This document shows positions 15,540-61,341 of a DNA stretch of 64,000 bases, in pieces. This stretch comes from Haloferax elongans ATCC BAA-1513 (GTDB taxonomy: Archaea > Halobacteriota > Halobacteria > Halobacteriales > Haloferacaceae), in assembly GCF_000336755.1 (NCBI RefSeq), contig NZ_AOLK01000024.1, positions 124,001 through 188,000 of the forward strand, in the 5' to 3' direction. How positions within the stretch are numbered: position 1 is the first letter of the stretch; each line of letters starts with the position of its first letter. The position numbers and the translations under genes are program-made. A model generated the notes under the pieces. It was not told where the DNA came from. It was given only the letters and a program-made list of their open reading frames with translations, and ran no database searches.

Positions 15540-15650
15540 CACACATGTTCCATCTTTCCGACGTACGCAACACAGCCCAGTCACGACTGTCGCGAAGGTC
15601 GCGCCGCCGACCGTCGCGAGACCCCCGCTCACGACCGGTACGGAGGTCCT

Positions 15651-19357: not shown

Positions 19358-19360
19358 CGC

Positions 19361-20539
19361 ATGACGACCCGACCCACTCGGTCACTTCGGCTCACGCCGC
19401 ATCTCGCGGTTGCCAGCGTCGGCTACGTGGTGTTTGCTTACGCCGCGGTTCCCGACGCGCTGATGGCCGCTTACGGGGTCGGGTTCACCGAAATCGGCTT
19501 GCTGATGAGCGCGGCACTCGCCGCGTTCGTCCTCGTGCAGGCTCCAACGGGCCGCCTCACCTCGAAAACGGCGACGACGCGGCTGCTCCTCTACGGGACG
19601 GCCGCCCACGCCCTACTCGCGGTGTTGCTCGACGTGGTGTCGGGATTCGCCGCACTGCTCGCGCTCCGCGCGCTCTGGGGGCTGGCTGGAGGCTTCGTCC
19701 TCTCGGTCGGCGCGACCCACATCGCCCGCCTCTACTCGGGGCAGGCCGCGACGCGGCAACAGGGCCTCTACGGCGGGATGCTGACGCTCGGCGGCGCGGT
19801 CGGCTTCGCTGTCGCACCCGCGCTCGTCGAGGAAGGGCTGCTCCACGGATTCGGCAGTGGGCTACTCCACAGCCCCGGCGCGGTGCTGGCGACTCCAGCA
19901 CTCGTCGTCCTCGCGCGGGAGCGCCACGACACGCTCACAGTCCCAAAGTCGGGGACCTCACCCGGCACCTTCTCGTCCACGCTCACCCTCGCGGTGGCGC
20001 TGGCATCACTGTGCTACGTGGCCATCATCGCCTCGTACATCACGCTCTCGACGTTCATCACGGCCTACGCCGCAGACATCGACGTGACCGGGCCACTCAA
20101 CGTGGCCGTCTTGCTGACGGCCACGCTCGGGCGGGCGACCGGCGGCGCGGCGGTCTTCCAGTTCTCGATAGGCGACCCGTGGTTCATCGCCGGAGCGACC
20201 GCGCTCGCGGCGGCCTGCTTCGCGGGACTCGCCGGACTGGGCACCTCACCACTCACCTTGGTGTTGCCCGTGGCGGCGATGCTCGCCGTCTCGGTTCCCT
20301 TCGGGGCAGTGTTCTCGGTCGCTGCCGACGCCGCCGTCCACGAAGGTGCCGCAATCGCGGTCGTCGTCGCGGCGGGCAACGTCGCGGCGCTCGTGCTTCC
20401 GGCGGTCACCGGCATGCTGCGCGACGCCACGGGCACCTACGCGAGCGGGTTCGCCCTGCTCGCCGGACTCAACGTGGTCGCCGTCGGCGCGGCCACGCTT
20501 CTCGGAACGAACCGGTTCTCACAGACTCACCAGACATGA
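19361..20539 (+). CDS. Major facilitator superfamily permease in the hyu operon
   Basis: A 392-residue membrane protein with about 12 hydrophobic segments and the length of an MFS carrier. The loop between TM2 and TM3 (APTGRLTSKTATTR) resembles the MFS motif A region. It begins 3 bp after hyuB, and livH follows after 52 bp. It may export a product or provide low-affinity uptake of the substrate that the ABC importer takes up with high affinity. Ion or substrate cannot be inferred. Confidence 0.85.
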   Translation: MTTRPTRSLRLTPHLAVASVGYVVFAYAAVPDALMAAYGVGFTEIGLLMSAALAAFVLVQAPTGRLTSKTATTRLLLYGTAAHALLAVLLDVVSGFAALLALRALWGLAGGFVLSVGATHIARLYSGQAATRQQGLYGGMLTLGGAVGFAVAPALVEEGLLHGFGSGLLHSPGAVLATPALVVLARERHDTLTVPKSGTSPGTFSSTLTLAVALASLCYVAIIASYITLSTFITAYAADIDVTGPLNVAVLLTATLGRATGGAAVFQFSIGDPWFIAGATALAAACFAGLAGLGTSPLTLVLPVAAMLAVSVPFGAVFSVAADAAVHEGAAIAVVVAAGNVAALVLPAVTGMLRDATGTYASGFALLAGLNVVAVGAATLLGTNRFSQTHQT

Positions 20540-20591
20540 CTCACAGACACAGACAAACGGACGTATCGCCAGCCGTGGAGGAGGGTCGCTG

Positions 20592-21794
20592 ATGGCATCG
20601 GCGGGCCTCCTCGACGCGCTGTTACAAGGACTCATCACGGGGATGATTATCGCAGCGGGCGCGCTCGGCCTCTCGCTTATCTACTCCATCGCGGAGGTTC
20701 CGAACTTCGCCCACGGCGATATGATAACCATCGGTGCGTACCTCGCACTCGCTTTGAACAAACCCGGGGCGATTCCCTTCGTTCCCGAATTCGGCGGCCT
20801 CCCGCTCATCGCGGCGGGCATCCTCGGCGTCGCCGTCGCCGGTAGTACCGGGGCAATCTACGAGGTCGCCATTTTCCGGCGGTTCCGCTCGAAAGGAGCC
20901 GACCTCATCACGATGGTCATCGTCTCGCTCGGCCTCGCGCTCGTGCTCAGAAACGTCGTGTTGTTCCTCGTCGGCTCGGGGAACATCAACTACGACACCG
21001 AGCGCGTCACCAACACCAACGTCGAACTCTACCTGACCGGAAACGGGCTGAGCGTCCAGACCGTCCAGCGACAGGCCGGTGACCTCGTCACGCTCGGCGA
21101 GTGGGGCTACGGCTGGCTCTCGCTGCTTGCTATCGTCGCTCTCGCCGCCGCGGTCGGCATCGGCGTCTACCGCTGGCGGAGCGACGACGCCTCCTTCGAG
21201 ACGGTCCACCTCGTCTCGCCGCGCATCTTCGGCATCGCTTCGGGCATCACCGCCCTCGCCGCCCTCGCAACCGTCTTGCAGGGCGCACCGCACACCATCG
21301 ACGCCGCAGTCTGGTCGACGAGCGTCGGCGTCAGCATCAAATACGGCGTCATCATCGGCCTCACGCTGGTGACGATGCTCGCCATGAATCTCCTGCTCAA
21401 GGGGACGAAGACGGGTCGCGCGATGCGCGCCACCGCCGACAACATGGCGCTCGCAGAGATTCGCGGGGTCAACATCGACCGCGTCCAGCTCGTCGTCTGG
21501 GTTCTCGCCGCGCTTTTGACCGCGCTCGCGGGCGTCCTGACGGGCTGGTTCGCGAGCAACCTGAATCCAAATATGGGCTTTTCACTCCTGCTTCCCATCT
21601 TCGCCGCCGTCATCATGGGTGGCATCACCTCCCCCTACGGGGCGGTGCTCGCCAGTCTCATCATCGGCGTCTCGATGGACGTGGGCGTCTTCCTCCTGCC
21701 CGCGGAGTTCGCGACGTACCGGACCGCAATCGCCTTCGTCATCCTCATCGGCGTCTTGCTCGTCAAGCCCGAGGGACTGTGGGGTGACGTCTGA
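20592..21794 (+). CDS. livH: Liv-type ABC importer permease LivH, extended
   Basis: About 400 residues from ATG 20592. An open frame upstream is the out-of-frame shadow of the MFS gene. The N-terminal part is typical (ALGLSLIYSIAEVPNFAHGDMITIGAYL), and the C-terminal EAA-like block reads AMRATADNMALAEIRGVNIDRV. Typical LivH proteins are near 290-320 residues. The excess is a central insert, about residues 130-245, that includes an additional hydrophobic segment (LSLLAIVALAAAVGIGVY) and a second (IFGIASGITALAALATVL). The stop overlaps the livM start (TGATG). Confidence 0.9.
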   Translation: MASAGLLDALLQGLITGMIIAAGALGLSLIYSIAEVPNFAHGDMITIGAYLALALNKPGAIPFVPEFGGLPLIAAGILGVAVAGSTGAIYEVAIFRRFRSKGADLITMVIVSLGLALVLRNVVLFLVGSGNINYDTERVTNTNVELYLTGNGLSVQTVQRQAGDLVTLGEWGYGWLSLLAIVALAAAVGIGVYRWRSDDASFETVHLVSPRIFGIASGITALAALATVLQGAPHTIDAAVWSTSVGVSIKYGVIIGLTLVTMLAMNLLLKGTKTGRAMRATADNMALAEIRGVNIDRVQLVVWVLAALLTALAGVLTGWFASNLNPNMGFSLLLPIFAAVIMGGITSPYGAVLASLIIGVSMDVGVFLLPAEFATYRTAIAFVILIGVLLVKPEGLWGDV

Positions 21795-23248
21795 TGGCGC
21801 TTGCTGACTTCTTCATCAGCCTGCTCACGTTCGTCACCATCTACAGCCTCTTCGGGCTGGGACTCAACGTGAAGTTCGGCTTCACCGGCCTCATCGACTT
21901 CGGCCACGTGGCGTACTTCATGATTGGCGCGTACGTCACCGTCTTCGTCGCCATGCCAGCGGGTCTCTCAGAGACCTACGAGGGCCTGACGGGACTTGGT
22001 CTCGCCACGGCCTTCGCGGGAGTCCCCGGCGGCGACCTGCTCGGCTGGCTCGTCGCGCTCGTCATCGGGATGGCCGCCGCGGCGCTCGTCTCGGTGTTGG
22101 TCGGCATTCCGACGATACGCCTCCGCGAGGACTACCTCGCCATCACGGCGCTCGGTATCGCCACCATCCTGAACGCGATCTTCCACAACGAGCGCTGGCT
22201 GTTCAACGGCGCGTTCGGCATCCGCGAGGTTCACGAACCCCTCTCGGGCGCGTTCCCCATCGGAACGGGGAGCTTCCAGCTGAACCTCCTGCTCTTCGGC
22301 CTGCCGTCGGTGGCCATTCTCGGTTACGCGGCCTACCGCACAGCCAAGGTCGTCCGCCCGCTCAGTGTCCGTCCGGCACTGCTTGGGACTGGCGCGACTC
22401 TCGCGCTCGCCGGGAGCGTCGTCTTCGTCATCACGACGATGACGGGGCTCGTCGTCGACCTCGGCGTGTTCGTCCTCAACGTGGACAACACCATCGCGTT
22501 CGTGCTGCTGGTCGGGTCGGTCGTCGCGGGCCGGGCGGCGCTCACGGAGACCGACCACATCGGCGCGCTGCTCGCGCTCGCGTCGGCGCTCCTCTTTACG
22601 CTGTGGTACCTCGGCCAGCCGCTCGTCGCGTTCGTGACCGAAGGTGAGACCGCAGACCTGCTTCTCAACCTGTTTTGGCTCTACGACGCCACCGCAGGCT
22701 CGGCAGGCGGACTGGACTACGACCGGTTCTTCTTCCTGTTCACGCTCGCGTTCCTCGTGGGCGCGTACCTCTGGGTCGAGCGCACGGTCAACAGCCCCTA
22801 CGGGCGCGTCCTGCGCGCAGTGCGCGAAGACGAGTCGGTGCCCGAAGCACTCGGGAAGCCGACGTTCCGCTACAAGATTCAGAGCCTGATGTTCGGGTCC
22901 GCGCTTGCGGGCGCTGCGGGCGGTCTCTGGGCCGCCAACATCGGCTTTATCGACCCGACGCAGTTCGCCTCGACGGTGACGTTCTTCGCCTACACGGCGG
23001 TCATCATCGGCGGCACCGCGAACAACCGAGGCGTCATCCTCGGAACCGCGGTCTTCTGGGTCATCAACTCGGGGACGCGCTTCCTCGACGACTTCTTCCC
23101 GAGCGAGTACGCCCAGCAACTCGCGGCGCTGCGGCTCATCCTCATCGGGGCGCTGCTCATCGTCATCCTCTACTACCGGCCGGAGGGGATGCTCGGCGAG
23201 CAGGACTACGACATCGACCTCGGCCGGGGAGGTGTGAGCGATGACTGA
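21794..23248 (+). CDS. livM: Liv-type ABC importer permease LivM, extended
   Basis: A 484-residue permease, against about 320-360 for typical family members. The N-terminal half is normal (NVKFGFTGLIDFGHVAYFMIGAY, TIRLREDYLAITALGIATIL). A central insert of about 130 residues (roughly 190-320) adds three or four hydrophobic segments. The C-terminal part then continues normally with LRAVREDESVPEALGKPTFRYK, the ATPase-contact loop. The neighbouring LivH is extended at the comparable place, so the insert is a feature of this importer type and not a local error. Overlaps livG by 8 bp. Confidence 0.9.
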   Translation: MALADFFISLLTFVTIYSLFGLGLNVKFGFTGLIDFGHVAYFMIGAYVTVFVAMPAGLSETYEGLTGLGLATAFAGVPGGDLLGWLVALVIGMAAAALVSVLVGIPTIRLREDYLAITALGIATILNAIFHNERWLFNGAFGIREVHEPLSGAFPIGTGSFQLNLLLFGLPSVAILGYAAYRTAKVVRPLSVRPALLGTGATLALAGSVVFVITTMTGLVVDLGVFVLNVDNTIAFVLLVGSVVAGRAALTETDHIGALLALASALLFTLWYLGQPLVAFVTEGETADLLLNLFWLYDATAGSAGGLDYDRFFFLFTLAFLVGAYLWVERTVNSPYGRVLRAVREDESVPEALGKPTFRYKIQSLMFGSALAGAAGGLWAANIGFIDPTQFASTVTFFAYTAVIIGGTANNRGVILGTAVFWVINSGTRFLDDFFPSEYAQQLAALRLILIGALLIVILYYRPEGMLGEQDYDIDLGRGGVSDD

Positions 23249-24014
23249 GATTCAAAACCCGATTCTCGACGTACAGGGCCTCGAAAAGCACTTCGGCGGT
23301 ATCACCGCCATCGGCGGCCTCGATATGCGCGTCGGCGAGGGTATCACCGGCCTCATCGGACCGAACGGCGCGGGGAAGACGACGTTCTTCAACTGCGTCA
23401 CCGGCGCGCTCACTCCCGACGCGGGTCGCGTCGCCTTCGCCGACGGTGACATCACCGGCAAGCGCCCCTCGGCAGTCGCACAGGAGGGACTCGTTCGGAC
23501 GTTCCAGATTCCACGGGAACTCCCGGAGATGACCGTCCGCGAGAACCTCCAACTGGCACCGCGCGGACAGAGCGGCGAGCGTCTGGCGCAGGCGTGGCTC
23601 CGCGGCGACGAGTTCGCCGACGACGAACGACGCGTCCGCGAGAAAGCAGCCGAGATGGCCGAGTTCCTCGAAATCGACCACGTCCTCGACGCGAAAGCGG
23701 GGACGCTCTCGGGCGGCCAGCGCAAGTTGCTCGAACTCGCCCGTGTCCTCCTCACCGAACCAGACATGATTCTGCTCGACGAACCGCTCGCGGGTGTCAA
23801 CCCCACGCTGGAACAGAAGATTCTCGACCGCATCCACGACCTCGAATCGCAGGGGTACAGCTTCCTCTTTATCGAACACGACATCGACGTCATCATGGAG
23901 ACGTGCGAGCGCGTCGTCGTCATGCACCAAGGGCAAGTCCTCACGTCGGGCGAACCGGCGGACGTAAAGAGCGACGACCGCGTCATCGAGGCCTACCTCG
24001 GGGAGGAGGTCTAA
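23241..24014 (+). CDS. livG: Liv-type ABC importer ATPase LivG
   Basis: A 257-residue ABC ATPase. Walker A GPNGAGKTTFF lies near residue 40, the Q-loop region near 92, signature LSGGQRKLLELAR near 157, Walker B MILLDEPLAGVNP near 176 and the H-loop EHDIDVI near 214. The LivG-specific long insert between Walker A and the signature is present. It pairs with LivF, whose start codon directly follows the stop (TAAATG). Confidence 0.95.
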   Translation: MTEIQNPILDVQGLEKHFGGITAIGGLDMRVGEGITGLIGPNGAGKTTFFNCVTGALTPDAGRVAFADGDITGKRPSAVAQEGLVRTFQIPRELPEMTVRENLQLAPRGQSGERLAQAWLRGDEFADDERRVREKAAEMAEFLEIDHVLDAKAGTLSGGQRKLLELARVLLTEPDMILLDEPLAGVNPTLEQKILDRIHDLESQGYSFLFIEHDIDVIMETCERVVVMHQGQVLTSGEPADVKSDDRVIEAYLGEEV

Positions 24015-24713
24015 ATGCTCGAAATCACCGGACTCGACGCTGGATACGGCGACCTCCAGATTCTCACCGACGTGGACATGCACGTCGACGACGGCGAGTA
24101 CGTCACCATCGTCGGCCCGAACGGAGCCGGCAAATCGACCGCGATGAAATCTGTCTTCGGACTGACCACCCACATGGACGGCACCATCACCTTCCGCGAC
24201 GAGCGGATAGCGGGTATCGACACGCCCGAAATCATCCGTCGCGGCATCGGCTTCGTTCCCCAGACGGACAACATCTTCCCGACGATGACCGTCCGCGAGA
24301 ACCTCGAAATGGGGTCGTACATCGACGAAGAGTCGGCCGACGAAGCGCTCCAAGCGGTGTTCGACCGCTTCCCCATCCTCGAAGAGCGCCAGCGCCAGCG
24401 CGCCGGAACCATGTCCGGTGGCCAGCGCCAGATGCTCGCGATGGGTAGCGCGCTGATGCTCGACCCCGACTTGCTCCTCCTCGATGAACCCTCGGCGGGG
24501 CTCGCACCCGACCTCGTCGACGAGATGTTCGACAAAATCGACGAAATCAACGAAGCAGGGACGGCCATCCTGATGGTCGAACAGAACGCAAAAGAGGCGC
24601 TTCGACGCTGTGACCGCGGGTACGTACTGGTCAACGGCGAGAACGCCTACGACGGCCCGGGGACCGAACTCCTCGGAGACGACGAAGTGCGCCAGCGCTT
24701 CCTCGGTGGCTGA
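24015..24713 (+). CDS. livF: Liv-type ABC importer ATPase LivF
   Basis: A 232-residue ABC ATPase, the usual LivF length. Walker A GPNGAGKSTAMK, signature MSGGQRQMLAMG, Walker B LLLLDEPSAGLAPDLV and an H-loop-like VEQNAKEALRRCD are all present; the Gln-for-His change in the H-loop position is normal for LivF. It is the last gene of the operon. A T-rich stretch (gtctttttcg, about 24808-24817) downstream may terminate transcription. Confidence 0.95.
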   Translation: MLEITGLDAGYGDLQILTDVDMHVDDGEYVTIVGPNGAGKSTAMKSVFGLTTHMDGTITFRDERIAGIDTPEIIRRGIGFVPQTDNIFPTMTVRENLEMGSYIDEESADEALQAVFDRFPILEERQRQRAGTMSGGQRQMLAMGSALMLDPDLLLLDEPSAGLAPDLVDEMFDKIDEINEAGTAILMVEQNAKEALRRCDRGYVLVNGENAYDGPGTELLGDDEVRQRFLGG

Positions 24714-49667: not shown

Positions 49668-51095
49668 TTACAGACGGCAGCTCATGTCGGGCGAGTCGGA
49701 CGGAATCGTCACTTCGTCGGCGGCGATTCGGGCGACCGGAGCGCTCGGCATGATTGCTGCGCCCCACTGGTCGGTCCACTCGTCGGTCGTCGGCACCGGG
49801 TCCGCGATAGTCATCTCCGAACGAGCCTGGTTGTTGTACGTCTGGAACGTGTAGCCGTCGTTCCCCTTCGGGGTGTCCGCGACCGTCATTCCGCGGAGGG
49901 CGGCGGCGATGTCCGCACCCTCGGTCGACCCACTTTCTTCGACAGCCTGCACGAGAGCCGACGCGGCGGTGAACTGCCCTGCCGACAGCAGGTCGGGGAC
50001 CTTCCCGTACGTCGAGGTGTGCATGTCGACGTAGGCGCTGTTGATGTCGTTGTCGTACTGATTCCAGTGGTACCGCGTGGTGAACGGACCGAACTGCTGT
50101 TGGGCGATTTTCTCCTTCGTCAGCGGCTTTCCGAGTGCCTTCTGGAGCGTCTGGCCGATGACGGTGTTCGTAATCTCGGTGGCGAACCCGCCGAACAGTC
50201 GCATGTCGTAGCCGCCGTTGATGAACGTCGTAATCAGCGCAGGGAGCGTCTGTGCGGTGAAACCACCGACCACGCCCTCCGCACCGGCTTCGGCGGCGTT
50301 GTCGAGGAGTCCCTCGAACTCGGAGTAGCCCTGCGGGACGAACTTCTCGCCGACGATTTCGATGCCCTCCGCTTCGAGCACCGACCGGTAGTTCGAGACC
50401 ACGGCGTGGCCGAACGAGTAGTCCGCACCCAAGAGGTACACCGCGTTCACGTCGGTCTCGCTGGCGACGTACTTGCCGCCGCTTCGGGCGTCCATCGCGG
50501 TGTTCTCGTTCACCCGAAAGACCGAATCGGTGCACGTCTCGCTCGACGCGGTGATGCTCGCCGAGGCCGCAGGGCCGACCATCATCGGTGTCCCGCTCGG
50601 CTTCGCGACGTTCTTGACGACTCGGTCGGCCGCCGCAGACGACGTCGCGCCGAACAGGAGGTCTACGGATTCGTTCTGTACGAGGTCGGTCGCCACGCTC
50701 TGTGCCTTGTCGGCGCTCAGCTCCGTGTCCCGAATCACGAGTTCGTAGTCGACATCGCCGACTGTCACCGTCTGCGTGCCCGACTCCGCCGTCGCAATCG
50801 GATCCGTGCCCGCTTTGTACGCAAATCCAGAGAACATCCCCCAGAGGCTCTGTTGTCCGTAGTACGTCAGTGGACCAGAGAGCGGTTGTATCACGCCGAT
50901 TTTCACGGAGCCAGCCGACCCGCCACCGCCGTTACCACTGTCCGATTGAGCCGTGTCGGTGTTGCCGTCGGTCTCGGCCGACGTCTCGGTCGCCGTGTCT
51001 CCGTCACCGGAACCCCCAGTACAGCCCGCAATTCCTGCGAGCCCCGCGACAGGAACCGTTCGAAGGAGCTTCCTACGCGATATGTTACCAACCAT
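49668..51095 (-). CDS. Liv-type ABC importer substrate-binding lipoprotein (system 2)
   Basis: About 475 residues from ATG 51095; an ATG at 51116 is in frame. Tat-like lipoprotein signal SRRKLLRTVPVAGLAGIAGC (Cys near residue 25), then an acidic linker to about 60. The mature fold opens VKIGVIQPLSGPLTYYGQQS; NAVYLLGADYSFGHAVV is a family block. First gene of the livGFHM (system 2) operon. It has its own GGTT-N8-AACC palindrome 37 nt upstream, although the hydrolase gene lies directly upstream on the same strand. Confidence 0.9.
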   Translation of the reverse strand: MVGNISRRKLLRTVPVAGLAGIAGCTGGSGDGDTATETSAETDGNTDTAQSDSGNGGGGSAGSVKIGVIQPLSGPLTYYGQQSLWGMFSGFAYKAGTDPIATAESGTQTVTVGDVDYELVIRDTELSADKAQSVATDLVQNESVDLLFGATSSAAADRVVKNVAKPSGTPMMVGPAASASITASSETCTDSVFRVNENTAMDARSGGKYVASETDVNAVYLLGADYSFGHAVVSNYRSVLEAEGIEIVGEKFVPQGYSEFEGLLDNAAEAGAEGVVGGFTAQTLPALITTFINGGYDMRLFGGFATEITNTVIGQTLQKALGKPLTKEKIAQQQFGPFTTRYHWNQYDNDINSAYVDMHTSTYGKVPDLLSAGQFTAASALVQAVEESGSTEGADIAAALRGMTVADTPKGNDGYTFQTYNNQARSEMTIADPVPTTDEWTDQWGAAIMPSAPVARIAADEVTIPSDSPDMSCRL

Positions 51096-51131: not shown

Positions 51132-51147
51132 GGTTGATATACAAACC
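51132..51147. promoter_or_regulatory. GGTT-N8-AACC palindrome (copy 1, system 2 promoter)
   Basis: GGTTGATATACAAACC lies 37 nt upstream of ATG 51095. TATA-like ttgtatt follows about 30 nt before the start on the gene strand. Confidence 0.62.
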
Positions 51148-51164
51148 CTGCAAGGGCAACCCGC

Positions 51165-52076
51165 TCAAGCGCGCTGCTGGAAGTCGTAGACGGTGTCGTA
51201 GAGGGTCTGGCGATGCGGTCCGTGCATCGCGAAGTGTGTTCCACCACCGATTTCGTGGTACTGTTTTTCGGTGGCACCGAGGTCATCGTAGAGCGCGAGG
51301 GCGTCAGGGCGCTGGGCGACGGGGTCGTCGCTTCCGCGGACGACGAGCGTCGGGGTGTCGATTGCGTCGGCGTCGTACACCGGGTTCCCCTCGCACCCAT
51401 CTCGAACGTCGGCGAGCGCACCCGTCTGGGCGACGTAGGCGTCTTCGCCCTCGACGCCCTGGTTCGAGTTCACCTGCGTCTGCCAGATTGCTTCGAAAAG
51501 CGGCGTCGGTTCGTCCATCCCCTGTCGAGCCATGACGGTCTGTTTTTCTTCTTTGTAGTAGGCGTCGAGGTCGGGGTCGAGTCCGAGTCCGGCGAGTCCC
51601 TCTTCGAAGTCGTACGGCGGGAGATAGACGGGCGCGCACATGACGAGCGATTCGAGGTTCGGCGAGTGCTCGGACACGAACGTTCCGCCGGTCATCGTCC
51701 CCCACGAGATGCCGACGAGGTGGACAGCGTCGAATCGCTCGCGTACGAACTCGAACCCCGCTTCGATGTCCATCACCGCGTCGCTGGCGCGTACTGGCGG
51801 GTCGTGTGCTTCCGGCGGGGCCTGCATCTCCGGCGGTCGCTCACTCTCGCCGTAGCCGCGAACGTCGAGCGCGAAAACGGCCTGCCCGTGTTCGGCCGCG
51901 CGGCTCAGCCACGAGTACGAGTCGTCGTCGGGGACGGGCGGCGCGAGAAGCGCCTCCGACGAGGTCATGCCGCCGTGGAGGAACAAGACGGCCTCCTCGG
52001 CCTCGTCCGGCGTTCGTTCCCAGATGCGGAGGCGAGTCCCGTCGCTGGCGTGTACGTCGTGTGCTACCAAACTCAT
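51165..52076 (-). CDS. Alpha/beta hydrolase (carboxylesterase-like)
   Basis: A 303-residue alpha/beta hydrolase from ATG 52076; the frame is open upstream only through the promoter. Oxyanion block LFLHGGMTSSEA near residue 39, nucleophile elbow GISWG (Ser near 130), acid region PTLVVRGSDDPVA near 262 and HFAMHG near 285 for the catalytic His. Residues ~190-235 form a cap. It lies between two Liv importers and beside an acyl-CoA ligase, so it may release a carboxylic acid from an imported ester or amide. It has its own palindrome promoter. Confidence 0.88.
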   Translation of the reverse strand: MSLVAHDVHASDGTRLRIWERTPDEAEEAVLFLHGGMTSSEALLAPPVPDDDSYSWLSRAAEHGQAVFALDVRGYGESERPPEMQAPPEAHDPPVRASDAVMDIEAGFEFVRERFDAVHLVGISWGTMTGGTFVSEHSPNLESLVMCAPVYLPPYDFEEGLAGLGLDPDLDAYYKEEKQTVMARQGMDEPTPLFEAIWQTQVNSNQGVEGEDAYVAQTGALADVRDGCEGNPVYDADAIDTPTLVVRGSDDPVAQRPDALALYDDLGATEKQYHEIGGGTHFAMHGPHRQTLYDTVYDFQQRA

Positions 52077-52112
52077 ATGTAACACAACCATCCTTTCGCT
52101 CAAGAAGAGGCA

Positions 52113-52128
52113 GGTTTACGTGTAAACC
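52113..52128. promoter_or_regulatory. GGTT-N8-AACC palindrome (copy 2, hydrolase promoter)
   Basis: GGTTTACGTGTAAACC, 7-bp arms with a 2-bp centre, exactly 37 nt upstream of ATG 52076. On the gene strand it continues TGCC, as does copy 3. No strong TATA box is visible below it. Confidence 0.72.
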
Positions 52129-52224
52129 CGCAGCCGAAGCGTGTACCTATCTCTCGCCGACCATCTGGCCTCCTGTCCTTCGCTGACCATCCGGCCTCCA
52201 ATCTCTCGCCAACCACCTGGCCTC

Positions 52225-53862
52225 TTATCCCTCACCGACCATCCGGTCTTCAGTGTCCCACTCTCGCTGCCGCAGTTCGTACTTCTGTACCTTCCCGGTC
52301 GCCGTCGTCGGTAAGTTCTCGACGAACTCTACCTCCTTGACTACCTTGTAGCCCGCCAACGACTCTCGCATGAACGACTCTAGTTCGTCTTTCGTGACGC
52401 CGGGGTTCTGTGAATCACCGCTCGTCGGCAGGACGTACGCCTTCGGCGACTCACCCCACTTGTCACTGGGAGTGGGAACGATTGCGACCTCCGAGACAGC
52501 GGGGTGGTCGTGCAGGACGTCTTCGAGTTCGAGGCTAGAGATGTTCTCCCCGCCGGAGATGATGATGTCCTTCTTGCGGTCCTGAATCGTCAAAAAGCCC
52601 TTCTCGTCGACGGTCGCCAAGTCGCCAGTGTGGAACCAGCCCTCGATTCGGTCGTTGAATGCCTTTTCGGTCTCTTCGGGCTTGTTCCAGTATGCTTCGA
52701 GAATCTGGTTGCCGCGGACGACGACTTCGCCGACGGTCTGGCCGTCGTGAGGGACTTCCTCGCCGTCTTCGTCGACGACCGTGATTTCGGTCCCCATGAA
52801 CCCGATTCCAGTCTTCTTCTTGACCGCGAAGCGCGAGTCGCTGTCTTCGTCGTAGAACCGCCGGAAGTCCGACGAGACGATGAGCGGTCCCGTCTCCGTG
52901 AGGCCGTACATCTGCTTGAAGTGCCACCCGAAGTCGTCTTCGAGGGTTCGCATGGTCGCCTCCGGCGGGGCCGCGCCACCCGAGGCGATTCGAAGCGGGT
53001 TGTCACCGAGCGTCTGCGGCTCGTGGTCCCGATAGTGGTCGATGAGCATGTTCATCACCGTCGGGGCGGCGCACATGTACGAGACGTCTTCCTCGACGAT
53101 TGTCTCGAAGATGTCCGCCGTGTCGATGCCGCGAGTGCAGACGTGAGTCGCACCCATGCCGGTGATAGAGAAGATGTGACCCCATCCGTTCGCGTGGAAC
53201 ATCGGGAGCGTCCACAGATACACGTCCTCGTCCGAAATCTCCTGGTGAGCCGCCGAGAGGTACGTGTGAATCACCTCGGCGCGGTGAGTCATCACGACGC
53301 CTTTCGGATTCCCGGTCGTCCCCGACGTGTAGTTGATGGCAGCAACGTCGTCTTCTTCCATCTCGGGGCGGTCGTACGCGTCGGGGTCGGTCTCGGCGAT
53401 GGCCGCGTCGAAGTCCTCCCAGTTTTCCGCGTCGACCGTCGGCTCGTCTTCGAGGGCGTCGCGGTCGTTGGTGATGAACACCTCGGTCGGTATCTCGTCG
53501 CGAATCGCCTCGATTTTCTCGGCGTACTCGTAGTCGACGATGATGGCTTTCGCCCCGCAGTCGTTGACGACGTAGTCCAGTTCGCTCGGCGTGAGCCGGT
53601 AGTTCAGCGGGGTGTGTATCGCGCCGATTTGAAGCGACGCGTACGCCGTTTCGAGGTGGTAGTGCGTGTTCGGGTCGATGACGGCGACGCGGTCGCCCTG
53701 CTCGACGCCGTGGGCCTGCAACGCCGCCGAGAGTCGGTCTACCCGGGCTCCGAGTTCGTCGTACGTCAGCCGGTCACCCGTGGTCGTGACGACGGCGTCC
53801 ATCTCACCGTAGTACGTCCTCGCTCTGTCGAGGAACTCCGTCGCAAGCAGCTCACTGTGCAT
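52225..53862 (-). CDS. Acyl-CoA synthetase (AMP-forming acid:CoA ligase)
   Basis: A 545-residue ANL-superfamily enzyme. The AMP-binding P-loop NYTSGTTGNPKGVVMTHR lies near residues 171-188. YGLTETGP near 290, the hinge GWFHTGDLATVDEKGFLTIQDRKKDIIISGGENIS (shown here by its blocks WFHTGD and DRKKDIIISGGEN) and the C-terminal catalytic Lys in LPTTATGKVQKYELR are intact. It resembles medium/long-chain and aromatic/phenylpropenoate-type ligases; the chain length cannot be fixed by eye. It probably activates an acid taken up by the flanking importers or released by the hydrolase. Confidence 0.93.
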   Translation of the reverse strand: MHSELLATEFLDRARTYYGEMDAVVTTTGDRLTYDELGARVDRLSAALQAHGVEQGDRVAVIDPNTHYHLETAYASLQIGAIHTPLNYRLTPSELDYVVNDCGAKAIIVDYEYAEKIEAIRDEIPTEVFITNDRDALEDEPTVDAENWEDFDAAIAETDPDAYDRPEMEEDDVAAINYTSGTTGNPKGVVMTHRAEVIHTYLSAAHQEISDEDVYLWTLPMFHANGWGHIFSITGMGATHVCTRGIDTADIFETIVEEDVSYMCAAPTVMNMLIDHYRDHEPQTLGDNPLRIASGGAAPPEATMRTLEDDFGWHFKQMYGLTETGPLIVSSDFRRFYDEDSDSRFAVKKKTGIGFMGTEITVVDEDGEEVPHDGQTVGEVVVRGNQILEAYWNKPEETEKAFNDRIEGWFHTGDLATVDEKGFLTIQDRKKDIIISGGENISSLELEDVLHDHPAVSEVAIVPTPSDKWGESPKAYVLPTSGDSQNPGVTKDELESFMRESLAGYKVVKEVEFVENLPTTATGKVQKYELRQREWDTEDRMVGEG

Positions 53863-53898
53863 GGGTATAGCATGGCAAGAATAGTGGGAAAGTTGGCA

Positions 53899-53914
53899 GG
53901 TTCACATGTGAACG
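53899..53914. promoter_or_regulatory. GGTT-N8-AACC palindrome (copy 3, CoA-ligase promoter)
   Basis: GGTTCACATGTGAACG contains a perfect 14-bp palindrome (53900-53913), 37 nt upstream of ATG 53862. Position and arms match copies 1 and 2. Confidence 0.7.
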
Positions 53915-53942
53915 AGAATGCGGGACGGCAACCCGACGCTCG

Positions 53943-54668
53943 CTACACCCCGCTTCCCTGCATCAACTTCTGAATCTCCGGTTCCTCAGCGAGCGCCTCT
54001 GGGTCGCCGCTGGCGACGATTTCCCCTCGCTCGACGACGTAGATTCGGTCGACGATATCGGGCACGTGCGTCACGTTCGATTCGGCGACGAGCACCGCGA
54101 TTCCGCGGTCGTTGATGGCGCGGATGTGGCGCTTGAGGTTCGAGACGACGACGGGAGCAAGCCCCTCCAGCGGTTCGTCGAGGAGGAGCAAGTCGGGTTG
54201 CAGCGACAGTGCGCGCCCGACGGCGGTCATCTTCGCCTGTCCGCCGCTGAGGTTCTCGACGTTCGCCTCGCAGCGCTCTTCGAGTTCCGGGAACACGTCG
54301 TAGATGTCGTCCACGACGGCGTCTTCGTCGTCGATGCCCCGTTCGTCACCGAGCGACCAGATGGGGAGTCTGAGGTTCTCCTCGACGGTCATCCCGGTGA
54401 ACAGTTTGCGGTCTTCTGGCTGGTAGCCGAGGCCGCGACTAGGGATGCGGTCGGCCGGTAACTCGGTCAGTTCCTCGTCGCGGAAGCGAATCGACCCCGC
54501 TGTCACGTCGGCGAGGCCCATGATGCTCCGGAACGTCGTCGTCTTGCCAGCGCCGTTGCGGCCGACCAGCCCGACGGCCTCGCCCTCGCCGACCGACAGC
54601 GACACGTCGTGCGTCACGTCGAATCCGGCGACAGCGGCGTCTACGGCGGTCAGTTCGAGGAGGCTCAC
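53943..54668 (-). CDS. livF: Liv-type ABC importer ATPase LivF (system 3)
   Basis: A 241-residue ATPase from a GTG at 54668. Walker A GRNGAGKTTTFRS, signature NLSGGQAKMTAVGRAL, Walker B LLLLDEPLEGLAPVVV; VAESNVTHVPDIVDR in place of the usual VEQN block. Last gene of the system 3 operon; overlaps livG by 4 bp. Confidence 0.93.
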   Translation of the reverse strand: MSLLELTAVDAAVAGFDVTHDVSLSVGEGEAVGLVGRNGAGKTTTFRSIMGLADVTAGSIRFRDEELTELPADRIPSRGLGYQPEDRKLFTGMTVEENLRLPIWSLGDERGIDDEDAVVDDIYDVFPELEERCEANVENLSGGQAKMTAVGRALSLQPDLLLLDEPLEGLAPVVVSNLKRHIRAINDRGIAVLVAESNVTHVPDIVDRIYVVERGEIVASGDPEALAEEPEIQKLMQGSGV

Positions 54669-55414
54669 TGTTCTACCCCCAAGAGGAGTCGGCGAAGTTC
54701 GTCATCAGTTTCGAGGATATCGGGTGGCCCCTCTCCGTGGACACCGCCCTGATGGAGCGCGACGACGCGGTCGGCGTACTCCGAGACGATGTCCATGTCG
54801 TGTTCGATGGTGACGGTCGTGACACCCTCTTCGCGACTCACTTCCGCGATGGTGTCGATGACGTAGGCCTTCTCCCGCGTCGAGACACCCGCGGTCGGTT
54901 CGTCGAGAAGGAGGTAGTCCGGGTCGAGCCCGAACGACATCGCCACGTCGAGCAGTTTGCGCGTCCCGTGCGCCAGTTCCTCGGCGACCGTGTCGGCGTG
55001 TTCGGCGAGGCCGAACTTGTCGATGAGTCCGGCGACTGTCTGTTCGACTTCCTGGTGGCCGTCTCGCAGCGTGAACATGCTTCGCGTGAGTCGGTGTTGC
55101 GAGAGGACGGCGGTGCGGACGTTTTCGCGAACCGTCATCTCCTCGAAGAGCTTCACAACCTGGAAACTTCGGACGAGTCCGGCGTGGACGCGCTCGTCGG
55201 GAGACAGCCCCGTCACGTCCTCGTCGTCGAGGAGCACGCGACCGCTGTCGGGAGTGAGGTGTCCCGTCAGGAGGTTCACGAGCGTCGTCTTTCCGGCCCC
55301 GTTCGGGCCGACGATAAAGACCATCTCACCCGTCTCCTTGCCGAATTCGACGCTCACGTCGTCGGTGGCGCGAACGTTTCCGAAGGACTTCCGAAGGGAG
55401 TCTGCACGGAGCAT
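54665..55414 (-). CDS. livG: Liv-type ABC importer ATPase LivG (system 3)
   Basis: About 249 residues from ATG 55414 (MLRADSLRKSFGNV); the frame is open upstream only through the livM shadow. Walker A GPNGAGKTTLVN, signature ELAHGTRKLLDVAMSF (LivG-type variant), Walker B YLLLDEPTAGVSTRE and H-loop IEHDMDIVSEYADR are present. It begins 1 bp after the livM stop. Confidence 0.94.
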   Translation of the reverse strand: MLRADSLRKSFGNVRATDDVSVEFGKETGEMVFIVGPNGAGKTTLVNLLTGHLTPDSGRVLLDDEDVTGLSPDERVHAGLVRSFQVVKLFEEMTVRENVRTAVLSQHRLTRSMFTLRDGHQEVEQTVAGLIDKFGLAEHADTVAEELAHGTRKLLDVAMSFGLDPDYLLLDEPTAGVSTREKAYVIDTIAEVSREEGVTTVTIEHDMDIVSEYADRVVALHQGGVHGEGPPDILETDDELRRLLLGVEQ

Positions 55415-55415
55415 C

Positions 55416-56579
55416 TCACCGCACCCCCAGGATGGACTGAACGTCTCGAAGCCAGTTTCGGGTGGCCTCCACGATTCCCGTGACCGCCGCCGAAATCCAC
55501 TCGCCGACGACAGCCGGGTTCTCGCGGAAGTCGCGGGTCGCCGCGGCGAGAAGCCCGCCCGCACGGAGCGACCCGACGAGGCCACGCGGTAGCCCGAAGA
55601 CGATGATGAGAAGCGCCACTCCGGTCAGCGCGTCGAAGTAGGCAGTCACGTCGCGGCCGACGTCCTGCAGGAACACCAGCAAGACGCCGCCCACGAGCGG
55701 TCCGAGGAGCGTCTGGAAGCCACCGAGGATGGCCATGAACAGGATGTCACCGGAGCGGAGGAAGTACAACACCGGACCGGGGCGGACGTGCTGTTGGACC
55801 ATCGCGTAGAGCGCACCAGCGACGCCGCCGTAGACGCCCGAGATGACGAACGCAATCCAGACGTACCGTTGGACGGGGATGCCGATGAACTGCGCGCGGG
55901 TTCGGTCCTGCCCGATGGCGTCGAGGGCGTTGCCGAACGGCGAGTTCACCAGCCGCCACATGACCACGAGCGACACCACGAGGATGATGACGGTCAGGTA
56001 ATAGAGGATGACCGCATACGCCTCTGAATCGAGCGCGAGACCGAAGATGAGCGGTTGACGCGCTGCGCCGGGTCGAACCGGAAGCCCGTCGCTCGACCCG
56101 AAGAAGGACTGGCCCTGAACGAGCGCGTACAGGAGTTGCCCGAACGCGAGCGTCAGAAGCGAGAAGTACAGCCCCGTGTGTCGAAGCGAGAGGTATCCGA
56201 CGATTGCGGCGACGAGCGTCGCGACGACCATCGCGGCGATGAGCAACAGGCTGAACGACGCCACGTCGAACTTGGCCGCGAGCACCGCTGCGGTGTACGC
56301 GCCGGTTCCGAAGAAGGCCGCGTGGCCGAACGAGACGAGACGCGTGTGTCGAAGCAAGAGGTTCAGTCCGACCGCGGCGAGGCCGAACAGTAACCCCTGA
56401 TGGACGACAGTCAGTTGCAGGCTCGGCGTTACCGTCGCGATGTCGGGAATCGCGAACACTACGAGGAGGCCGACGAGTGCGAGCATCGACTGCCGCTTGG
56501 TGAGTTCGAGTCCCTTGGTCACGCGGACGCGTGTCTCGCCGTCGCGCGAGACGAGTCCGGGGAGCGAACGATTGCTCAT
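55416..56579 (-). CDS. livM: Liv-type ABC importer permease LivM (system 3)
   Basis: A 387-residue permease. Blocks: RHTRLVSFGHAAFFGTGAYTAAV, LRHTGLYFSLLTLAFGQLLY, ALDAIGQDRTRAQFIGIPVQRY. There is an N-terminal cytoplasmic lead-in of ~25 residues and a C-terminal ~45-residue soluble tail. Overlaps livH by 4 bp. Confidence 0.92.
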   Translation of the reverse strand: MSNRSLPGLVSRDGETRVRVTKGLELTKRQSMLALVGLLVVFAIPDIATVTPSLQLTVVHQGLLFGLAAVGLNLLLRHTRLVSFGHAAFFGTGAYTAAVLAAKFDVASFSLLLIAAMVVATLVAAIVGYLSLRHTGLYFSLLTLAFGQLLYALVQGQSFFGSSDGLPVRPGAARQPLIFGLALDSEAYAVILYYLTVIILVVSLVVMWRLVNSPFGNALDAIGQDRTRAQFIGIPVQRYVWIAFVISGVYGGVAGALYAMVQQHVRPGPVLYFLRSGDILFMAILGGFQTLLGPLVGGVLLVFLQDVGRDVTAYFDALTGVALLIIVFGLPRGLVGSLRAGGLLAAATRDFRENPAVVGEWISAAVTGIVEATRNWLRDVQSILGVR

Positions 56580-57514
56580 CCCATCTCACCCCACGTGCCG
56601 AAGAGACCCTCCGGGCGAACCAGAAGGACGATAGCCATAATTGCGAACGGTGCGGCGAGTTCCGCCGGTGGGTACTGCCAGATGGCCCATCGACTCAACA
56701 CGCCGACGAGGAGTGCGGCGACGAACGCGCCGCGGAGACTTCCGAGCCCGCCGATGACGATGACGACGAACGACAACACGAGCGGGTTCGCCCCCATGTC
56801 GAGACTGGCGAAGCGCGGCGGCAGCGCGAGCGCCCCCGCGAACCCGGCGAAGAACGCGCCGAGTGCGAATACGAGCGTGAACGTGCGACCCGTGTTGACG
56901 CCGATTGCAGTGGCCATCTCGCGGTTGATGGCCGTCGCACGGATGATGCGGCCGGTCTTGGTCCGATTGAAGAACCAGAACAGCCCCGCGACGGTCACCA
57001 GCCCGATGACGATGATGACCACGTTGTAGGTCGGGTAGGTGAGGCCGACACGCGACAGCACCGGAATCGAGTTGATTCCTCCGTAGGCGTCCTGGAGACG
57101 GAGCGGCGAGGGCCCCCAGATGAGCTTGTTCACGTCCTTGATGATGAGCAAGAGCGCGAACGTGAGGACGATTTGGTACACCTCGTCGCGGCCGTAAATC
57201 GGCTTGAAGAACGTCGTCTCCAGAAAGACCCCGACCGGAACGAGGATCGCCGCGGTGAGGGCGGCACCGAGGAGGACGACGCCGAGGAATACGAGTTGTG
57301 TCGAGAGCGTCGTCGGCGGGGCGACCAGACCGGTGAGGTACCCGATGATGGTAAAGCCGACGTACGCACCGAGAGCGAACAACTCCCCGTGGGCGAGATT
57401 CAACACGTCGAGGATACCCAAGACGATGGTCAGCCCCGACGCGATGAGAAACAGGACGAACCCGTACTGAATCCCGTGGAGCGTGTGTGTGACGAAAGTT
57501 TCGAGTCCAGTCAT
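56576..57514 (-). CDS. livH: Liv-type ABC importer permease LivH (system 3)
   Basis: A 312-residue permease of normal length. Blocks: LFLIASGLTIVLGILDVLNLAHGELFALGAY, VYQIVLTFALLLIIKDVNKLIWGP, RATAINREMATAIGVNTGRTF and GGLGSLRGAFVAALLVG. Begins 12 bp after the binding-protein stop. Confidence 0.93.
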   Translation of the reverse strand: MTGLETFVTHTLHGIQYGFVLFLIASGLTIVLGILDVLNLAHGELFALGAYVGFTIIGYLTGLVAPPTTLSTQLVFLGVVLLGAALTAAILVPVGVFLETTFFKPIYGRDEVYQIVLTFALLLIIKDVNKLIWGPSPLRLQDAYGGINSIPVLSRVGLTYPTYNVVIIVIGLVTVAGLFWFFNRTKTGRIIRATAINREMATAIGVNTGRTFTLVFALGAFFAGFAGALALPPRFASLDMGANPLVLSFVVIVIGGLGSLRGAFVAALLVGVLSRWAIWQYPPAELAAPFAIMAIVLLVRPEGLFGTWGEMG

Positions 57515-57526
57515 GCGTGTCCTGCA

Positions 57527-58843
57527 TCACCAACTCGAAATCCATTCCGACGCGGTGGTTCCCGGCGGCGGTGCGAGTTCCGGCGGACTGTGCATCGAGA
57601 TGTTCTCCAAGGCGGGTGCGCCGAGGTCGTCGTCCCAGACCATATCGCCGTAGTAGGCGTTCGACAGGCCCTGATGGCCCTGTCCCATCACGTGATAGCC
57701 CGCAGGGGTGTAGAAGCCGTGGCCTTCGAGCGCCGTCGCAATCTGTTCCTGTGACGGCCAGCCGCCGACGAGGTTGACCGTCTTCTCTACGGCAGTCGCC
57801 CACGCAGCAACCGCACCGTACCCACTCATGAAGTGGGCGCTGGGGACGATATCCCATTGGTCGCGGGCGTCCTGCAGGACTTGTTTGCCGGGCTCCCACC
57901 GCGACGGCGTGGGTTCACCCCAGTAGAAGTTCCGCGACCCGGAGACGGCGTTTGCCTGCTCGACGACGTCCTTACTGAGGTCGTTGACGGCGCTGTAGAG
58001 CACCGACCCGACGAGCTGGGTGTTTTCGAACATGTTGTTCGCCGCCGCCTGATTCAGGAGCGTCGTGACGTCGCCGCCCCAGTTCGACGAGAAGGTCACG
58101 TCGGGTTGTTTGTCGTTGACCTCGGTGATGTGGGTAGACATGTCCTCGGCCAAGAGGTCTGGATAGCCCTCGTAGACGACCTCAGCCCCAGTGAGCTTCT
58201 GGATAGCCGACTTGAACACGCTGAACTCGTCTTTCCCGAACGCGTAGTTCGGGTTGATACCCGCGACGGTGTCGATGTTGTCCGCGCCCAGTCGGTCTAC
58301 TGCGGCGCGGGCAGCGGCGACACACTCCATGACGTCGTGGTTCTGGAATCGGAACGAGTAGGTCGGGTCGGGAACCGTCTCCTCGTACAGCGTCGTCACC
58401 GTCCCGTCGGTTCCGACGTTGACGACACCCTGATTCTCGACTTCGGGAGCGAGTGCCGCGTGTCCCCCACTCGACGTGGGGCCGAACGTCACGTCCTTTC
58501 CCTCGTCGACGAACTGTTTGTAGTTCTCGACGTGTGCGTCGGCCTCGTGGACGACGTCGAGTTGTATCTCTCGGCCGGCGACGCCGCCCGCGTCGTTGAT
58601 TCGTTGCACCGCCAGTTCAGCGCCGTACTGTGTCTGGAGGCCGAGAACGGCTGCCGCGCCCTCCGTGAACGTCTGGAGGCCCGCCTGAACCGGCTCGTCG
58701 GGGACATCCACGGCGCCTTCGGACTGCGACGACTCGTCGTCACCCAGCAGCGCAGTACAGCCCGCGAGAGAGGCCGCAAGTGCGGTCCCACCGATTGCTT
58801 TGAGCATCGTACGTCTGTCGAGTGAAGTGTGTGGTGTTGACAT
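57527..58843 (-). CDS. Liv-type ABC importer substrate-binding lipoprotein (system 3)
   Basis: A 438-residue binding protein with lipoprotein signal DRRTMLKAIGGTALAASLAGC (twin Arg, Cys near residue 29) and a Gln/Ser/Glu linker. Mature part opens PVQAGLQTFTEGAAAVLGLQTQYGAELAVQRINDAGGVAGREIQ, represented by its blocks VLGLQTQYGAELAVQ and GREIQLDVVHEAD. First gene of the livHMGF (system 3) operon. A palindrome lies 89 nt upstream, so a leader of about 50 nt is likely. Ligand unknown; neighbours point to a carboxylic acid or ester. Confidence 0.9.
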   Translation of the reverse strand: MSTPHTSLDRRTMLKAIGGTALAASLAGCTALLGDDESSQSEGAVDVPDEPVQAGLQTFTEGAAAVLGLQTQYGAELAVQRINDAGGVAGREIQLDVVHEADAHVENYKQFVDEGKDVTFGPTSSGGHAALAPEVENQGVVNVGTDGTVTTLYEETVPDPTYSFRFQNHDVMECVAAARAAVDRLGADNIDTVAGINPNYAFGKDEFSVFKSAIQKLTGAEVVYEGYPDLLAEDMSTHITEVNDKQPDVTFSSNWGGDVTTLLNQAAANNMFENTQLVGSVLYSAVNDLSKDVVEQANAVSGSRNFYWGEPTPSRWEPGKQVLQDARDQWDIVPSAHFMSGYGAVAAWATAVEKTVNLVGGWPSQEQIATALEGHGFYTPAGYHVMGQGHQGLSNAYYGDMVWDDDLGAPALENISMHSPPELAPPPGTTASEWISSW

Positions 58844-58931
58844 TGGTGTGCACTGTCAGAGTCGCGGTGTCGGTTTCGAAACCACGCGACCTTAGGTAAC
58901 AATTGACACTGAACAACCGGAAAGTGGTCTG

Positions 58932-58947
58932 GGTTTATCGATAAACC
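58932..58947. promoter_or_regulatory. GGTT-N8-AACC palindrome (copy 4, perfect 16-mer)
   Basis: GGTTTATCGATAAACC is a perfect 16-bp palindrome in the divergent region between the system 3 operon and the HTH_10 gene. It lies 89 nt from ATG 58843 and 87 nt from ATG 59034. A shorter relative, GGTTTCGAAACC, lies at 58872-58883. Confidence 0.68.
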
Positions 58948-59033: not shown

Positions 59034-59744
59034 ATGGAATCATTAATGGTCGATATGGTGCAATACGATTGCCCGTACATCGACACCACAGTGGACCACG
59101 ATGTCTCGTTCACTGGTCTGCACTGGGATTTCAATACTGCACGACAGCAACTCGAATCGCGTGTGTTGGTGAAAGCCGAGTGCGTCGAAGAACTCGACAG
59201 TGGGCTCAACGCACTTCGGGACCACCACAACATGACCGACTACCGGCTCCTTTCGCGACGTGGCGACCGGGCGATTATCAAAAACGCGGTCGGACAGACG
59301 AGTGCGATGCGGGCGATTCGAAACAACAACGGCTATCTCACAGGTGCGTTCGAAGCGAGTGACGGGAGCGAGCGGTGGCACATCGGGTTCGACCGAAGCG
59401 ACATGGTGAGCGACGCGCTCTCGGAACTCGACCGCGAGAACGACTTCACGGTGGAGTCGCAAGCGACCATCACCTTCGAGGACTACTTCGACCTCGTCGA
59501 GCACGTCGGCCCCGCGAAGACGCTCCTCGACGCGTGTCGCTCGCTTTCGTCTGTCGAGCGCGAGACGCTCGAAACGGCGCACAAAAACGGCTACTTTTCC
59601 ACCCCGCGCGACGCGACGCTTGGAACGCTCGCCGACGAATTCGGAATTTCGAAGACCGCTGTCTCGAAGAACCTCCGTCGTGGACAGGGGAAACTCATGG
59701 GCCAAGTACTCGACGCGATGACCGACATCGACGAGCGCGCGTGA
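59034..59744 (+). CDS. HTH_10 (bacterio-opsin activator type) regulator
   Basis: About 236 residues from ATG 59034; an ATG at 59019 is in frame but TATA-like gtttatttg at 59001-59009 favours the later codon. The N-terminal ~170 residues are the sensory domain. The HTH_10 domain is at the C-terminus: LSSVERETLETAHKNGYFSTPR, then ATLGTLADEFGISKTAVSKNLRR. It is divergent from the system 3 operon, with the perfect palindrome between them, so it is the best candidate activator of the 49-59 kb genes. Inference only. Confidence 0.86.
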   Translation: MESLMVDMVQYDCPYIDTTVDHDVSFTGLHWDFNTARQQLESRVLVKAECVEELDSGLNALRDHHNMTDYRLLSRRGDRAIIKNAVGQTSAMRAIRNNNGYLTGAFEASDGSERWHIGFDRSDMVSDALSELDRENDFTVESQATITFEDYFDLVEHVGPAKTLLDACRSLSSVERETLETAHKNGYFSTPRDATLGTLADEFGISKTAVSKNLRRGQGKLMGQVLDAMTDIDERA

Positions 59745-59869
59745 CTGACGTTCACGTATCAACCCGGTGATTGAATGACTCCGTAAGCCAGTATTCTAGT
59801 GGGACGTGGCGACCCGGTGATACCGTCGCATTTGCCTGCCAGTGGGTTCCTCGTTCCGATATCCGTGCC

Positions 59870-59895: not shown

Positions 59896-59991
59896 CTCTC
59901 CTGTCCTTCGAGCCGACTGTCGCGGCAGTCGTCACCCGACGTCGATATATCAACCTGTGCGTAGAAGCCGTTGACTACGCATTTTCTCTCT

Positions 59992-60387
59992 ATGCCAGTC
60001 GCGTCCGTCGGCGACACCGCCGACTCGACACTCGACGTAACGACAGACAGAATCGACGCGTTTGCCGAGGTAAGCGGCGACACGAACCCACTTCACCTCG
60101 ACGACGACTACGCAGAGTCGTCCATGTTCGGCGGGCGTATCGCACACGGAATGCTCGCCGCCGGTGTCGTCAGTGCTGCGCTCGCCAACCTCCCCGGTGA
60201 GGTGGTCTACCTCTCACAGAACCTCGACTTTCGAGAGCCGATTCGCCCCGGTGAGACGGTTACTGCCACCGCGACAGTGGTCGAGGACCTCGGTGACGAC
60301 AAAGTTCGCGTCGAGACGACAGCCAAGACGGACGAGACGGTAGTCGCCGGCGAAGCAGTCGTTCTCTCGCTACCGCGTGCCGTCTGA
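59992..60387 (+). CDS. MaoC-like (R)-specific enoyl-CoA hydratase
   Basis: A 131-residue hot-dog-fold protein from ATG 59992 (frame open upstream to 59971). The hydratase motif is clear: AFAEVSGDTNPLHLDDDYAE, with the catalytic Asp and His, then GGRIAHGMLAAGVVSAAL. The size matches PhaJ-type enzymes that hydrate trans-2-enoyl-CoA. Its position after the CoA-ligase region suggests acyl-CoA metabolism, although the gene is separate. Confidence 0.88.
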   Translation: MPVASVGDTADSTLDVTTDRIDAFAEVSGDTNPLHLDDDYAESSMFGGRIAHGMLAAGVVSAALANLPGEVVYLSQNLDFREPIRPGETVTATATVVEDLGDDKVRVETTAKTDETVVAGEAVVLSLPRAV

Positions 60388-60738: not shown

Positions 60739-61341
60739 ATGCGTAGCCTCGACGAGACCGACCTTCGAATCCTCGAACTCCTCGCCGACGATGCTCGGCG
60801 GCCGTTCAGCGACATCTCCGACGAAGTCGGACTCTCGGCTCCGGCCGTCTCCGACCGAATCGACCGGCTCCGCGAGGAAGGTGTCATCCGGCGTTTTACG
60901 GTCGATGTAGACCGTTCGACGCTCTCGGGCGGGACGCCCGTGCTCGTCCGTCTGTCGGTTCGGCCGGAGTTCGTCAGTGACGTCCGCGACGCGCTTCGAG
61001 AGGCAGACCCAGTCGAGCACCTCTTCGTGACCGTAGACGGCGACGTGACGTTCCACGCGCGGCTCGACGGCGGGTCGATTCGCGTCGAACTCGACGACTT
61101 GGTCGACCTCTCGACGGTGCGCGAGTACGATGTCAGCCTCGTCGAATCGGCCGAGTGGACGCCCACAGTCAACGGAACGGGATTCGCATTGGAGTGTGCG
61201 GAGTGCGGCAACACCGTCACGAGCGAGGGCGAACGCGCTCGCATCGGCGGCACGCTCTATCACTTCTGTTGTTCGTCCTGTCTTGGCCGCTTCCAGACAC
61301 GGTACGACCGAATGGAGGCGGGTGCACGGTCGGATAACTGA
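60739..61341 (+). CDS. Copper-responsive Lrp/AsnC-type regulator with TRASH domain
   Basis: A 200-residue regulator. Residues 1-60 are an AsnC-type wHTH ([37 protein letters not shown]). Residues ~65-145 are the effector-binding-like part. The C-terminus is a TRASH metal-sensing domain with CAECGNTV near residue 154 and [11 protein letters not shown] near 175. It lies between the chaperone and copA and is the probable copper sensor for both. Confidence 0.92.

Follow-up and report, generated by a model that had tools for sequence, protein, structure and literature searches.

A palindrome at a fixed promoter distance as the predicted operator of an HTH_10 regulator in a Haloferax catabolic cluster

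The window analysed here, 64,000 nucleotides (nt) of Haloferax elongans ATCC BAA-1513 (contig NZ_AOLK01000024.1, positions 124,001 to 188,000), carries a catabolic cluster of two Liv-type importers, an alpha/beta hydrolase, an acyl-CoA ligase and a MaoC-like hydratase, together with a gene for a regulator with an HTH_10 domain and several copies of a 16-nt palindrome in front of genes (Table 1). We propose that this palindrome, GGTTnACATGTnAACC, very probably serves as operator for the HVO_2525_N-HTH_10 regulator encoded nearby, which would activate a regulon for short-chain hydroxyacid utilisation from a position beside the B recognition element (BRE) and TATA element.

A first-pass annotation of the sequence had reported palindromes at 51132 (GGTTGATATACAAACC), 52113 (GGTTTACGTGTAAACC), 53899 (GGTTCACATGTGAACG) and 58932 (GGTTTATCGATAAACC), and all four are present at exactly these positions. 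It was also right that the first three lie exactly 37 nt from a start codon (minus-strand ATGs at 51095, 52076 and 53862; distances run from the site edge to the first base of the start codon), that TGCC follows both copies 2 and 3, and that the fourth is a perfect 16-mer between importer 3 and the HTH_10 gene. The GGTT...AACC arms that it ascribed to all four are found at 51132, 52113 and 58932 but not at 53899, which ends one base off in AACG, leaving three sites that match GGTTN8AACC; in site 1, no more than 6 of the 8 positions pair. Three exact matches compare with 0.47 expected in the window, and 0 of 100 shuffles reach three. A fifth site, absent from that annotation, has its edge exactly 37 nt upstream of the MaoC ATG. 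We note that a degenerate sixth match lies 5 nt past the HTH_10 stop codon and 228 nt before the MaoC ATG, with no start codon seen at the canonical distance.

The motif itself is not enriched. The genome scan that the first-pass annotation had called for, with GGTTNAN4TNAACC at up to one mismatch, returned 40 matches in the H. elongans genome against 39 for a reversed control pattern; since the bare motif is as common as its control, the sequence alone is not significant, and its count was dropped as evidence. The weight of the evidence is in position and in conservation among relatives. At 41 loci around HTH_10 genes (a few being ~33% identical paralogues), 49 palindromes with one mismatch allowed lie upstream of starts versus 7 elsewhere, and 29 permuted palindromes at the same loci give 0–7 upstream. 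With up to two mismatches and 1,099 called genes, offsets 36, 37 and 38 hold 17, 44 and 5 sites, any other offset at most 9. The 80 named loci hold 79 sites at offsets 36–39 versus ~1.5 per other offset, and 1–2 for five permuted palindromes; these locus sets overlap in part and are not fully independent. Targets at the canonical offset in the 80 loci are genes for a short-chain dehydrogenase/reductase (SDR) resembling 3-hydroxybutyrate dehydrogenase (25), the hydrolase (23), the importer 2 binding protein SBP2 (18) and MaoC (7). In other genera, SBP2 orthologues have the site at a similar position, a ligase 85–86% identical (L055 and L056) has the same site at the same offset, and the MaoC operator is centred at −43/−44 in 21 other genomes with the regulator.

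Aligned promoters give the consensus GGTTcACATGTkAACC, in which a core, GTTnACATGTnAAC, is conserved beyond the GGTT/AACC arms. A TATA-like TT(G/T)(A/T) run follows 6–7 nt downstream of the operator, at about −30 to −27, and the BRE position between the two is GC-rich and without the usual A-run; the site thus stands immediately upstream of TATA/BRE. In haloarchaea, 72% of protein-coding transcripts are reported to be leaderless and the TATA motif to be TTWT (PMC4983044), so that this geometry fits leaderless promoters with an operator abutting the BRE. Promoters of SBP3, the binding protein of importer 3, keep the operator–TATA spacing with a longer leader (~50–100 nt), and five orthologues (L057, L058, L059, L210 and L212) share this spacing with operator 4. 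The fixed quantity therefore appears to be the operator-to-TATA distance, and the arrangement fits operator 4 serving the SBP3 promoter rather than the HTH_10 gene. The HTH_10 gene was rejected as a target of site 4, there being no T-run at the right spacing in that direction. An element, GTGACAGT, is kept in SBP3 5′ leaders across genera (L057, L058, L059, L210, L218 and L219).

Presence of the palindrome tracks presence of the regulator. Orthologues of the HTH_10 protein were called in 38 of 148 genomes of the family, H. elongans included (E<1e-69), and in 140 of 292 across the class (E<=1e-50). The palindrome, at up to two mismatches, precedes MaoC in 22/22 genomes with the regulator versus 0/8 without it (Fisher 1.7e-7), the H. 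elongans entry in this count being the 59749 match, as the 59940 site was recognised later. MaoC proteins of the eight genomes without the regulator are 60–78% identical, yet their promoters have no site. For SDR promoters the counts are 14/14 versus 0/16 within the family (Fisher 6.9e-9) and, for positional sites outside it, 22/40 versus 0/25 (Fisher 1.3e-6). Contrasts also occur inside single genera (g1, g17 and g26), with G000, G065 and G124 set against G130, G028, G127, G097 and G112, G016 and G058 against G040, and G047 against G063 and G075. Where genomes without the regulator do show motif matches (L083, L087, L090, L092, L095 and L096), these fall in coding sequence or far off the canonical offset. 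Genus g10 has its HTH_10 gene unlinked to the putative targets, and sites still precede SBP2, MaoC, SDR and poly(3-hydroxybutyrate) (PHB) depolymerase genes elsewhere in the genome, an arrangement that points to action in trans and argues against simple cluster linkage. These comparisons support the earlier suggestion that a single activator beside the BRE controls all of these genes, with the HTH_10 protein as the candidate. The g10 HTH_10 gene adjoins a tubulin/FtsZ-like gene rather than the catabolic cluster (L063, L072, L043 and L047).

The protein has the domains of a sensor-regulator. Its HTH_10 domain (PF04967) scores 58.9 bits against a cut-off of 23.1 and is strongly conserved across the orthologous group. 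HVO_2525_N (PF24279) is the sole N-terminal Pfam domain; the PAS and GAF domains of Bat are absent, and we therefore file the protein under the wider HTH_10 family and not as a Bat orthologue. In its AlphaFold model (mean predicted local distance difference test score, pLDDT, 93.6) the C-terminal part is a sigma-region-4-like helix-turn-helix (HTH), and the N-terminal domain, with two beta-alpha-beta units in succession, is for that reason called tandem ACT-like. The best match of this domain by VIA-align is Ta1207 (Z 11.5, root-mean-square deviation 3.1, 138 aligned), which shows fold only, followed by the ACT domains of prephenate dehydratase and SerB; VIA-align rows were used since the top Foldseek rows had high deviations. 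A sequence search gave no convincing solved relatives. It is reasonable, from the model, to regard the protein as a ligand-sensing, operator-binding activator.

We propose that the ACT-like N-terminal domain probably senses a small metabolite, and that an HTH_10 dimer would bind directly upstream of BRE/TATA at mostly leaderless promoters and may there recruit or stabilise TFB/TBP. In H. elongans this would turn on the two Liv-type importers, the acyl-CoA ligase, the hydrolase and MaoC as separate transcription units, and in relatives the 3-hydroxybutyrate-dehydrogenase-like, symporter and PHB-depolymerase genes. Direct binding, dimerisation, activation and an inducer of the HTH_10 protein are what we infer for it.

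The target genes bear on the substrate. The best family for the SDR is 3-hydroxybutyrate dehydrogenase (TIGR01963), at 225 bits and thus below the cut-off of 307. The g10 esterase, the PHB depolymerase named above, scores well above the cut-off for NF050058, extracellular short-chain-length polyhydroxyalkanoate depolymerase. PF10503 genes number four in the 148 family genomes, all in g10, all in genomes with the regulator and all with the operator upstream. In Halogranum (g23) the operator precedes a pair of genes for a small membrane protein and a sodium:solute symporter (L060:13089-15112 and L061:3449-5499), which apparently stands in for an ABC importer near this regulator. Judged from these gene families, the substrate class is on balance predicted to be short-chain (3-hydroxy)carboxylates such as 3-hydroxybutyrate. 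For Haloferax an alternative to the dehydrogenase route would be coherent with the enzyme families, in which the ligase makes the CoA ester and MaoC dehydrates it into beta-oxidation. More tentatively, the regulon could extend across the archaeal class and serve the uptake and breakdown of 3-hydroxybutyrate and of extracellular bioplastic of the PHB type. The HTH_10 activator would then use its ACT-like domain to sense either the monomer or the CoA ester of it, the palindrome would replace a good BRE, and genera would have exchanged transport modules (two ABC types and one sodium symporter pair) while keeping the operator.

Several points weigh against these assignments. The genomes behind the presence/absence counts and Fisher values are not phylogenetically independent, and no correction for phylogeny was applied; 18 of the 40 genomes outside the family that have the regulator show no site before the SDR gene, and 24 of the 80 HTH_10 neighbourhoods have none at the canonical offset. 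Among the targets at offsets 35–39 in the loci scanned there is no HTH_10 gene, and hence no sign of autoregulation. A second regulator could be common to the genomes that have HTH_10. The H. elongans genome has no SDR at E<=1e-60 and no Esterase_PHB gene at the threshold used, and 3-hydroxybutyrate is for this reason not certain for this species.

Archaeal repressors too may bind over or beside the BRE, and the HTH_10 protein could in principle occupy the operator as a repressor that the substrate releases. We consider this unlikely. The site precedes the TATA-like element and covers neither TATA nor the start, and the BRE position has a high GC content and lacks its A-run. Activation is described for NarO and DmsR, characterised regulators of the HTH_10 type (PMC11218638), and bop is induced by Bat (PMC2253796). 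Whole clusters gained and lost together would give any cluster-linked regulator the same co-occurrence, and the window also encodes an Lrp/TRASH regulator; the operator might then belong to another transcription factor co-inherited with HTH_10 and the catabolic genes, HTH_10 merely residing in the cluster. This is more improbable still: an Lrp homologue lies near the HTH_10 gene in L056 only (family neighbourhoods were scanned and distant copies not searched), the association persists where regulator and targets are unlinked in g10, and the MaoC or SDR genes kept by genomes without HTH_10 are not preceded by the site. A reading of the palindromes as chance occurrences, or as a promoter element common to haloarchaea in general, is what the near-equal motif and control counts in the H. 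elongans genome might suggest; it has next to no probability in view of the offset peak and of the orthologous promoters that lack the palindrome in genomes without HTH_10.

An HTH_10 activator acting at this operator has partial parallels. The bop upstream activating sequence of Halobacterium salinarum, a different, asymmetric sequence, spans positions of about −39 to −52, which is where this operator stands too. As here, the Bat/bop system pairs an HTH activator of the bacterio-opsin activator type with a short upstream element proposed to coordinate several genes (bop and crtB1; PMC2253796, PMC3184054). Bat differs in having PAS and GAF domains; here the sensor is ACT-like, the operator is palindromic and the targets are catabolic and transport genes. 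A second likeness is to the NarO/denitrification motif of Haloferax, CGAAYATDKTYG, a semi-palindrome repeated before promoters of a cluster with a bacterioopsin-activator-like gene (PMC10062603, PMC11218638), whose binding regulator is stated as undisclosed (PMC11218638). That motif has another sequence and another regulon, denitrification instead of a carbon source, and stands 66–79 nt upstream of three ATGs, whereas this operator is fixed at 37. The bacterial PHB regulators PhaR and AniA belong to an unrelated protein family, act at bacterial promoters and concern stored rather than imported polymer. They control PHB-related metabolism (PMC12542648), as the regulator proposed here may do.

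A literature search, with subscription papers mostly outside its reach, turned up no account of either the operator or the regulon. Both appear undescribed, HTH_10-type activators as such (Bat, DmsR and NarO) being already known. To our knowledge, few HTH_10-like proteins of haloarchaea have a known binding site. For one HTH_10 orthologous group there is now a predicted operator together with a set of targets and a constant promoter geometry, all of which can be put directly to the test in genera amenable to genetics, Haloferax and Haloarcula among them. With its constant distance from operator to TATA-like element, the system is well suited to asking how an archaeal activator contacts TFB/TBP where a good BRE is missing. 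Should the substrate prove to be 3-hydroxybutyrate, the way in which use of the PHB monomer is controlled would also be identified in halophiles studied for bioplastic production.

Table 1. Palindrome sites and genes of the cluster, in window coordinates.
Feature	Coordinates	Strand	Remarks
Operator 1	51132..51147	-	GGTTTGTATATCAACC; 37 nt from SBP2 ATG 51095; TATA-like TGTATT 51125-51120
Operator 2	52113..52128	-	GGTTTACACGTAAACC; 37 nt from hydrolase ATG 52076; TATA-like TTCTT 52106-52102
Operator 3	53899..53914	-	CGTTCACATGTGAACC; 37 nt from acyl-CoA ligase ATG 53862; TATA-like CTTT 53892-53889
Operator 4	58932..58947	-	Perfect palindrome GGTTTATCGATAAACC, SBP3/HTH_10 intergenic; CTTT 58924-58921; SBP3 leader ~52 nt
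Operator 5	59940..59955	+	CGTCGATATATCAACC; 37 nt from MaoC ATG 59992
Degenerate match	59749..59764	+	CGTTCACGTATCAACC
HTH_10 regulator (HVO_2525_N + HTH_10)	59034..59744	+	Pfam PF24279, PF04967; proposed cognate factor
SBP2, Peripla_BP_6 binding protein	49668..51095	-	First gene of importer 2
Alpha/beta hydrolase	51165..52076	-	PF00561
AMP-binding acyl-CoA ligase	52225..53862	-	Long-chain-fatty-acid--CoA ligase subfamily NF004837
Importer 3	53943..58843	-	SBP3 57527-58843; permeases 56576-57514, 55416-56579; ATPases 54665-55414, 53943-54668
MaoC-like hydratase	59992..60387	+	PF01575
Lrp/TRASH regulator	60739..61341		Alternative cluster-linked regulator

Pfam matches in the cluster include Peripla_BP_6 binding proteins and an ABC ATPase. 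Further genes of importer 2 follow SBP2 at 48891, 48196, 47159 and 45820; the importer 3 permeases are named by sequence similarity. Another Liv-type importer of the window, with hydantoinase A/B-like genes (14250-24713), has no GGTTNAN4TNAACC match at one mismatch. A methylmalonyl-CoA mutase-like gene (G000:C15:494819; L378 and L396), with GGTTCACACGTAACCC at offset 38, was considered as a trans target and rejected as unsupported, because the identical site occurs in G091, which has no HTH_10 orthologue, and is degraded in G065 and G124, which have one.

The regulator belongs to a populous family, with at least 18 HTH_10-like homologues scored in the H. elongans genome. In other Haloferax, a related palindrome, GGTTAGGATGCTAACC, adjoins the gene of a 33% identical HTH_10 paralogue (L051:9497 and L052:10326) and may serve a sister regulator as its operator.

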